64,000 bases of DNA, taken from NCBI GenBank assembly GCA_016839055.1, contig JAEKNX010000005.1, forward strand, positions 62,001 to 126,000, given 5' to 3'. The stretch comes from Spirochaetales bacterium (GTDB taxonomy: Bacteria; Spirochaetota; Spirochaetia; UBA9216). Positions 9,637 to 10,950 of the stretch are shown in pieces. Numbering within the stretch: the stretch's first letter is position 1; every line of letters begins with the position of its first letter. The position numbers and the translations under genes are program-made. The notes beneath the pieces are model-generated. The model was not told the DNA's origin and did not search any database. It saw only the letters and a list, made by a program, of their open reading frames with translations.

Positions 9637-10185
9637 ATGAATAAAGAAATTGAACTGAAAGCTCCGGTCTTTGACCCGGATAATCTGAAAGGTATTTTAA
9701 TCGAAAAATATGGTGACTATACTTCTATTGACAAGGATGATATCTATTACCGCTATCCTTCGGGTCAGCTTGCCAGGCTGCGGAAGGAAGGCGGGAGTAA
9801 TTGTATAACCGTCAAGAAGAAGACCTTGGCAGGAGGTATAGAGATAAATGATGAGCTTGAGTTCCGCGTGGATGACGGTGAGAGTTTTCTTTCGTTTATG
9901 CAGATAACTGGTGCCGAAGAATACCTCAGCAAGATTAAAAAAGGATACCGGTTCCTTAGCGAAGACGGCGCGGTAATCGAGCTGTGTGAGGTGAGTAATC
10001 TCGGCTGGTTTATAGAGATTGAGAAGGTGGTCCCTATATCGGAAGATCAGGCCGGCACCAGGGCTGAAGGCAGACTGATAGATGATGCAAAGTCTGTTAT
10101 TCTTGGAGTGCTCGAGTCTCTGGGAATCCCTGAGAGCAGGCTTGAACACCGGTATTACTCGGAACTACTGCTTGGCAGGAAGTAA
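9637..10185 (+). CDS. CYTH-domain protein (class IV adenylate cyclase / triphosphatase family)
   Basis: A 182-residue CYTH triphosphate-tunnel protein. The family signature ExExK is seen at E4, E6 and K8 (EIELK). Further basic and acidic tunnel residues follow in RLRKEGG, ITVKKK, DELEF and EIEKV, with HRYYSELL near the end. Members cleave or cyclise triphosphate substrates (ATP, thiamine triphosphate or inorganic triphosphate). It resembles CyaB-type class IV cyclases, but substrate cannot be read from sequence. No ribosome site is evident before the ATG. Confidence 0.8.
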   Translation: MNKEIELKAPVFDPDNLKGILIEKYGDYTSIDKDDIYYRYPSGQLARLRKEGGSNCITVKKKTLAGGIEINDELEFRVDDGESFLSFMQITGAEEYLSKIKKGYRFLSEDGAVIELCEVSNLGWFIEIEKVVPISEDQAGTRAEGRLIDDAKSVILGVLESLGIPESRLEHRYYSELLLGRK

Positions 10186-10221
10186 TCTTATTACCGCTGT
10201 TTCGGCTGAAATGGTTGCTGC

Positions 10222-10584
10222 CTAAATAACAATGCGGCGCCACTCAAGATATGAGCCCTGGAAATTTACCAGTATGCCCAGCCTGCAGCCTGAAATATGC
10301 AGATAGTTTATAAGCTGGGCAATATGAGCTTCAGAGAAACATTTTGCTGATTTGAGTTCAATGATTATTTTATTCTCAACTACCAAATCAGCGAAATACT
10401 CACCAACAATGTTGCCCTTGTAGCTTACATTGAATGGAACATTATAACCGGTTAAAAACCCCATACCTTTAAGCTCATAAAATAATGCATTATGATAACA
10501 CTGCTCAAGCAGCCCCGGCCCTAGTTGGGAGTGAACTTTTAAACAGCAGCCAACAACCTCAAATGCTAATTCCTTATATATCAT
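10222..10584 (-). CDS. GxxExxY family protein (PD-(D/E)xK nuclease-like)
   Basis: A 120-residue protein with the hallmark GPGLLEQCY (G-x-x-E-x-x-Y) at about 22-30. It also has a nuclease-like core, D at GEYFADLVV then IIIELKS, matching the D...(E)xK pattern of PDDEXK_3. The family's biological role is unknown to me. It is common in genomes with multiple copies and is often seen in accessory loci. The ribosome site AGGAGG is strong. The gene faces away from an unusual 99-base hairpin that begins about 30 bases upstream of its start, suggesting that the pair may be a mobile or cassette-like unit. Confidence 0.8.
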   Translation of the reverse strand: MIYKELAFEVVGCCLKVHSQLGPGLLEQCYHNALFYELKGMGFLTGYNVPFNVSYKGNIVGEYFADLVVENKIIIELKSAKCFSEAHIAQLINYLHISGCRLGILVNFQGSYLEWRRIVI

Positions 10585-10612
10585 AATTTCCTCCTGAAAT
10601 TTTCAATCAAAA

Positions 10613-10711
10613 CAACAACTCCACTTTTCAGGCGGTCAAGATTGAGCGACAGCAGCATAGCTGCGTCGCGAACTTGCATTGATCTTGACGGCATGAAAAT
10701 GGAGGTTAAAA
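10613..10711. repeat. Long two-tier palindromic hairpin, attC-like
   Basis: Outer arms at about 10617-10645 and 10679-10707 pair imperfectly: AAC-TCCAC-TTTTCAGGC on the left against the complement of GCATGAAAA-TGGAG-GTT on the right, followed by GTCAAGAT/ATCTTGAC. An inner stem GCGAC-A-GCAGC / GCTGC-GTCGC (10646-10656 with 10660-10669) is closed by an ATA loop. AAC/GTT ends, a five-base spacer that does not pair in register, a bulged second box and a variable terminal stem are features of integron attC sites. The left end CAACAAC does not fit the RYYYAAC consensus. Confidence 0.5.
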
Positions 10712-10911
10712 TGAAAAAACAGAAGGAGGAATCAGATTAGCCCCTGCCTTTTTCTTTATTGCCGCAGCCTTTACTCCGGCAGTGTTCGTGGCAAAATAAA
10801 TAAAGTAGGTACCTCCTTAAAGGGGAAATGATAACAATGGTGGGGGAGTGAATATCAGCTTCGTTAATTTTAATAATCATTACTGCAGCCTCGGCTTGAA
10901 ATCCATGAATA
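10712..10911. other. Gene-poor stretch, possible gene remnant
   Basis: No convincing gene between the hairpin and the terminator at 10912. A near-perfect ribosome site (GGAGG, 10701-10705) precedes an ATG at 10711 that opens only nine codons (stop 10738-10740). A second frame then encodes a hydrophobic run (APAFFFIAAAFTPAVFVAK, stop near 10791) without its own start, as if a small signal-peptide gene had lost two bases in the A-run after the ATG. Nothing else is recognisable. Confidence 0.3.
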
Positions 10912-10950
10912 CAAAAAAAAGACCCGCCTGATTCAACGAATCAGACGGGA
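10912..10950 (-). terminator. Terminator of the HTH-EIIA gene
   Basis: Minus-strand stem CCCG-CTGATTC / GAATCAG-CGGG (10923-10949, one mismatch) is followed by a run of T residues, the complement of 10912-10920. The 146 bases between here and the stop codon at 11097 would be a 3' untranslated region. Confidence 0.75.

Follow-up and report, generated by a model that had tools for sequence, protein, structure and literature searches.

A conserved palindromic leader in front of GxxExxY nuclease genes in Spirochaetales, a candidate translational lid on a putative selfish unit

A small gene in a Spirochaetales genome is preceded by a palindromic leader that covers its Shine-Dalgarno sequence. As judged from sequence comparison, it is well supported that this leader is conserved and co-evolving in front of the gene, which codes for a small uncharacterised nuclease of the GxxExxY family. 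Hairpin and gene form a real and conserved pair that is probably functional. We lean towards the interpretation that leader and gene together form an IS-like selfish nuclease unit, with the palindrome limiting translation. The hairpin does not qualify as a recombination site of integrons. GxxExxY genes are widespread, yet they are scarcely mentioned in the literature searched. A covarying, conserved leader that is tied to these nucleases is a concrete handle on the function of the family.

The leader and the nuclease gene behind it

The window, which is the whole stretch of 64,000 nucleotides that was analysed, contains a hairpin at 10613..10711 (no strand assigned), as described in the first-pass annotation. 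It is evident from fold energy and arm complementarity. The region 10600-10725 folds as single-stranded DNA with -28.3 kcal/mol, compared to a mean of -12.5 for shuffled sequences (z -6.4; none of 200 shuffles was as good), and the longest arms (10625-10642 and 10682-10699; 18 nt) are 89% complementary. The assigned extent is too small. An outer stem widens the element to 10588..10731 (minus strand, 144 nt), and the 99-base hairpin is its inner portion. The complete leader is composed of an outer stem that includes the Shine-Dalgarno sequence, a long inner stem, an asymmetric bulge with a conserved CAAG, and a terminal stem. The 5' arm of the outer stem (10720..10731; TTCCTCCTTCTG on the minus strand) is complementary to the Shine-Dalgarno region and is predicted to pair with the Shine-Dalgarno sequence of the GxxExxY gene (AGGAGG, 10590..10595, minus strand). 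A search of Rfam 15 returned no family overlapping 10588-10731 up to E 5, and no phage relatives of the hairpin were found when looked for.

The gene itself (10222..10584, minus strand) encodes a PD-(D/E)XK nuclease of 120 aa with an intact D66...E76xK78 motif, as assigned by TIGR04256 (132.6 bits, with a curated cut-off of 35), PF13366 (125 bits) and a structure model. D66, E76 and K78 are invariant across 18 homologues. The AlphaFold model (pLDDT 96) has as its nearest solved structures SSO0001 (4ic1, TM 0.64), which we take to be a Cas4 protein, and lambda-type exonucleases; the structural match to a Holliday junction resolvase is weak. Searching the PDB with the protein sequence gave nothing relevant. 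Among phages and viruses, the only relative was one distant archaeal-virus nuclease, and PADLOC gave only weak matches to known defence systems.

A homologous hairpin is found directly upstream of relatives of this gene in the same genus, in the same family and in other families of the Spirochaetales. When 17 leaders were aligned by sequence only, 18 of the 28 predicted pairs showed compensatory changes. A larger set of 28 leaders was aligned to a covariance model of the leader (R1). In this set, both-sided pair changes numbered 150 (46.6 when shuffled), 89.8% of cells were paired (70.2% when shuffled) and the covariation score was 0.477 (0.163 when shuffled; none of 500 shuffles was as high), bearing in mind that an alignment fitted to R1 yields counts that lean towards the model. 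Values were far lower when the partners were slid out of register. The unpaired CAAG-type bulge is conserved, and the spacing to the start codon is fixed. The leader in the window, which is itself part of R1, scores 105 bits.

Comparison with integron attC sites

A hairpin that neighbours an accessory gene may be misread as an attC site. The first-pass annotation had indeed proposed a solitary integron attC site accompanied by a GxxExxY cassette, a proposal that we now consider hardly credible. A two-tier hairpin with a bulge speaks in its favour, as does the presence of an integron integrase in the genome. The results for the hairpin itself are contrary. The window was scanned for the motif RYYYAAC...GTTRRRY with paired inner boxes; no attC site was detected in it, while those in the positive controls (two spirochaetal arrays and plasmid integrons) were found. 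The pair of R'' (RYYYAAC) and R' (GTTRRRY) boxes is absent in all 28 homologous leaders, and the AAC/GTT ends that had been pointed out are not conserved among homologues. The hairpin is located 5' of the gene, with its palindrome spanning the Shine-Dalgarno sequence, while a cassette has its attC site 3' of the gene. Other copies of the hairpin occur only as leaders of GxxExxY genes.

A search of the whole genome with an attC covariance model had been suggested as a check. For this, we used a model (R2) that was built from ten spirochaetal attC sites. A mixed alignment of spirochaetal and plasmid attC sites was set aside because MAFFT misaligned the two groups. R2 is narrow, with a plasmid attC site scoring only 14 bits, and it detects dozens of sites in the arrays of two genomes (G029 and G049) and some in a third (G110). 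It found no sites over the whole genome studied here and, with filters off, only noise near the hairpin. Lacking R boxes and conserved AAC/GTT ends, positioned on the wrong side of the gene and passed over by R2, the hairpin was rejected as an attC site.

The earlier statement that no integrase is present holds for the window but not for the genome. An integron integrase is encoded on another contig (G000:C30:51093-52019, locus L025; TIGR02249, 387 bits). At this locus, a Fic-type gene is found beside the integrase at the contig end, and attC sites are not detectable. Because the integrase is near a contig end, the assembly may lack a cassette array; the tests made on the hairpin are unaffected by this. 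Across the class, 36 of 118 genomes have integron integrase matches at E 1e-60 or better.

Occurrence across the class and at empty sites

R1 was searched in 118 genomes of the class and gave 51 matches in 18 of them. Of these matches, 40 have a PF13366 match immediately downstream in the same orientation, and the leader sits 15-30 nt before the GxxExxY coding matches. All matches with at least 46 bits trace to a GxxExxY gene or to its remnant. Three strong exceptions, all from the same genome (G011), are attributed to interruption. At C3:505902 (L096), the first 28 GxxExxY codons are kept after the leader and are followed by intron-like sequence. At C1:320590 (L112), an IS21-like insertion separates the leader from the gene, which is found 2.6 kb on. 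At the equally scoring C1:1743045, a same-strand gene follows 5.8 kb on, and an insertion is presumed. Just below this score range, a 45-bit leader of the R1 type from G067 (L100:1501-1620) precedes an unrelated ORF of 71 aa, which has two CxxC motifs and no match in Pfam or NCBIfam. The other distant matches either score low (about 30-35 bits) or lie opposite a true leader, on the complementary strand. No strong leader match apart from GxxExxY genes or their remnants, and hence no non-autonomous copy, was seen in the 118 genomes. Extending the R1 search across the phylum under stricter filters added no new contexts. The genomes of the class carry up to 15 PF13366 matches, and many GxxExxY genes have no R1 leader. 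Among these is another intact copy in the genome studied here (on C17). The association of hairpin and GxxExxY gene, as suspected in the first-pass annotation, was encountered in essentially every strong case.

The hairpin had been called solitary, which is correct inside the window. A search for further copies, as had been recommended, revealed homologous leaders in relatives and two more leaders elsewhere in the genome (C18:62186 and C39:26501). Both of the latter front decayed GxxExxY genes (G000:C18:62374-62752 and C39:26703-27128). The homology between copies of the unit extends from the 5' arm of the leader to about the stop codon of the gene.

A comparison with a related strain that lacks the locus had also been advised, and such a relative exists. 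The congener G001 is devoid of the whole stretch (about 10186..10913, no strand assigned; comparison L156). In G001, the stop codon of the CYTH gene is directly followed by the sequence that corresponds to about 10914, so that the genome studied here has ~729 bp of extra DNA. In G003, a chemotaxis-receptor gene is found between the same two neighbours. The extra DNA is bracketed by an imperfect direct repeat of ~30 bp (left copy 10183..10212, right copy 10874..10902, both on the plus strand). Its local score of 31 was reached in none of 2000 shuffles and none of 5000 random pairs, for a repeat that was chosen after the fact. The G001 site has no copy of this repeat, which therefore does not amount to a proven target duplication. 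It is possible that the empty site in G001 arose by deletion, one locus having been compared. At a possible second empty site (L052), synteny is restricted to one side, and this site was set aside as uninformative. At one locus, the flank upstream of the unit is common to G001 and G004, which indicates that units can stay put for long. Of the idea that hairpin and gene are a mobile unit, the pairing and the empty site in G001 stand, while movement itself does not follow from them. We infer that the unit is mobile, with the nuclease contributing to its movement.

Translational lid, DNA site or resident regulator

The Shine-Dalgarno sequence is predicted to be buried. Its predicted unpaired probability is 0.00 in the leader of the window, with a median of 0.03 for 26 leaders. 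This compares to 0.18 after shuffling of the sequence upstream (p 2e-5) and to 0.25 in 11 genes of the window that have a GGAGG (p 6e-4). A translational lid may well be the function for which this burial was selected. With the outer stem pairing to the Shine-Dalgarno sequence, a transcript that includes the whole leader would be poorly translated. Such a transcript could originate by read-through from the upstream PTS gene. A terminator-like hairpin (10923..10949, minus strand) follows the PTS EIIA gene, with the same sequence in G001 and G003; it is upstream of the leader on the same strand, so any read-through would enter the leader. In this way, the unit would keep its nuclease at a low level, like insertion sequences that bury the ribosome-binding site of their transposase. 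Leader and gene would make up a small selfish unit, gained and lost at intergenic positions without integron recombination.

The palindrome may instead act as DNA, being extruded as a cruciform or folded as a single-stranded hairpin that is recognised or cut by the GxxExxY nuclease for movement or self-maintenance of the unit, with the burial of the Shine-Dalgarno sequence being a by-product. We judge this rather unlikely but retain it as the main rival because the pairs show no clear preference for G-U over A-C and because the antisense strand folds equally well or better. On the sense strand of the leaders, 36 G-U pairs compare to 22 A-C mismatches, and the two are near parity in the sequence-only alignment with one column left out. 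Antisense folds better in 18 of 27 leaders, with similar energies for both strands. A sense-strand preference was for these reasons dropped as proof of an RNA function, and covariation of this kind counts in favour of a DNA site. The modelled resemblance of the PD-(D/E)XK partner to Cas4-like and lambda-type exonucleases, and weakly to a Holliday junction resolvase, is consistent with a DNA site, as are other GxxExxY genes that adjoin palindromes of short repeats. Against it stand the strong leader matches, none of which was seen apart from GxxExxY genes or remnants, and the palindrome, which consistently ends at the Shine-Dalgarno sequence. As a quite unlikely alternative, the leader might be a cis-regulatory element of a resident, non-mobile gene (e.g., for autoregulation by the GxxExxY protein) that is subject to ordinary gain and loss. 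The conserved, unpaired CAAG-type bulge with its fixed spacing to the start codon would fit this, and so would the position that one locus has in common between G001 and G004. The presence of several paralogues per genome, of copies that are decayed or interrupted and of an empty site in a congener counts against it. Overall, a lid on a selfish nuclease unit appears to be the most likely of the mechanisms considered. We speculate, as an unlikely extension, that GxxExxY nucleases are the core of an undescribed class of minimal selfish DNA units, whose palindrome would serve twice, as the DNA site on which the nuclease acts and as the lid on translation of its mRNA.

Other arrangements of palindromes were seen near GxxExxY genes. 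Where R1 is missing, some of the genes have palindromes of unrelated sequence over the Shine-Dalgarno sequence or the start codon. In G058 (L131), a CATAGATACTCTC...GGAGAGTATCTATG palindrome, unrelated in sequence to R1, covers both of these. The regions upstream of 36 GxxExxY genes from the class have a median fold z of -2.4, compared to -0.5 for 51 ORFs from the window (p 0.0015), in a crude comparison that includes R1 leaders and genomes that differ in composition. GxxExxY units of the genus that includes G011, G036 and G071 are found amid palindromic modules. Clusters of such modules occur on both sides of the units in G071 and G036 (flanks of L047 and L089), e.g., GCCGCCCGCTGCGCTTGATGAAGAGGAT... 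or AACCACGAC...GTCGTGGTT.

The leader resembles integron attC sites in being an imperfect, bulged hairpin whose spacer is asymmetric. It differs by having other conserved parts and no R boxes, by its location 5' of the gene and over the Shine-Dalgarno sequence, and by the silence of the attC model. REPIN/RAYT systems are similar in that palindromes are associated with the gene for a DNA-processing enzyme (PMC3116915). They differ in that no leader palindromes dispersed by themselves were seen here and that the enzyme is of the PD-(D/E)XK type rather than a RAYT. Within the GxxExxY family (TIGR04256, PF13366), the present gene is a clear member; a leader palindrome is nowhere described for the family in the literature searched. 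In IS200 and IS10, the 5' leader of the mobile-element gene is folded and takes in its ribosome-binding site. The same kind of leader precedes the transposase gene of ISPpu9, where the structured leader is reported to limit translation (PMC8450116). The gene of ISPpu9, IS200 and IS10 codes for a transposase, whereas the present one codes for a PD-(D/E)XK protein of the GxxExxY family.
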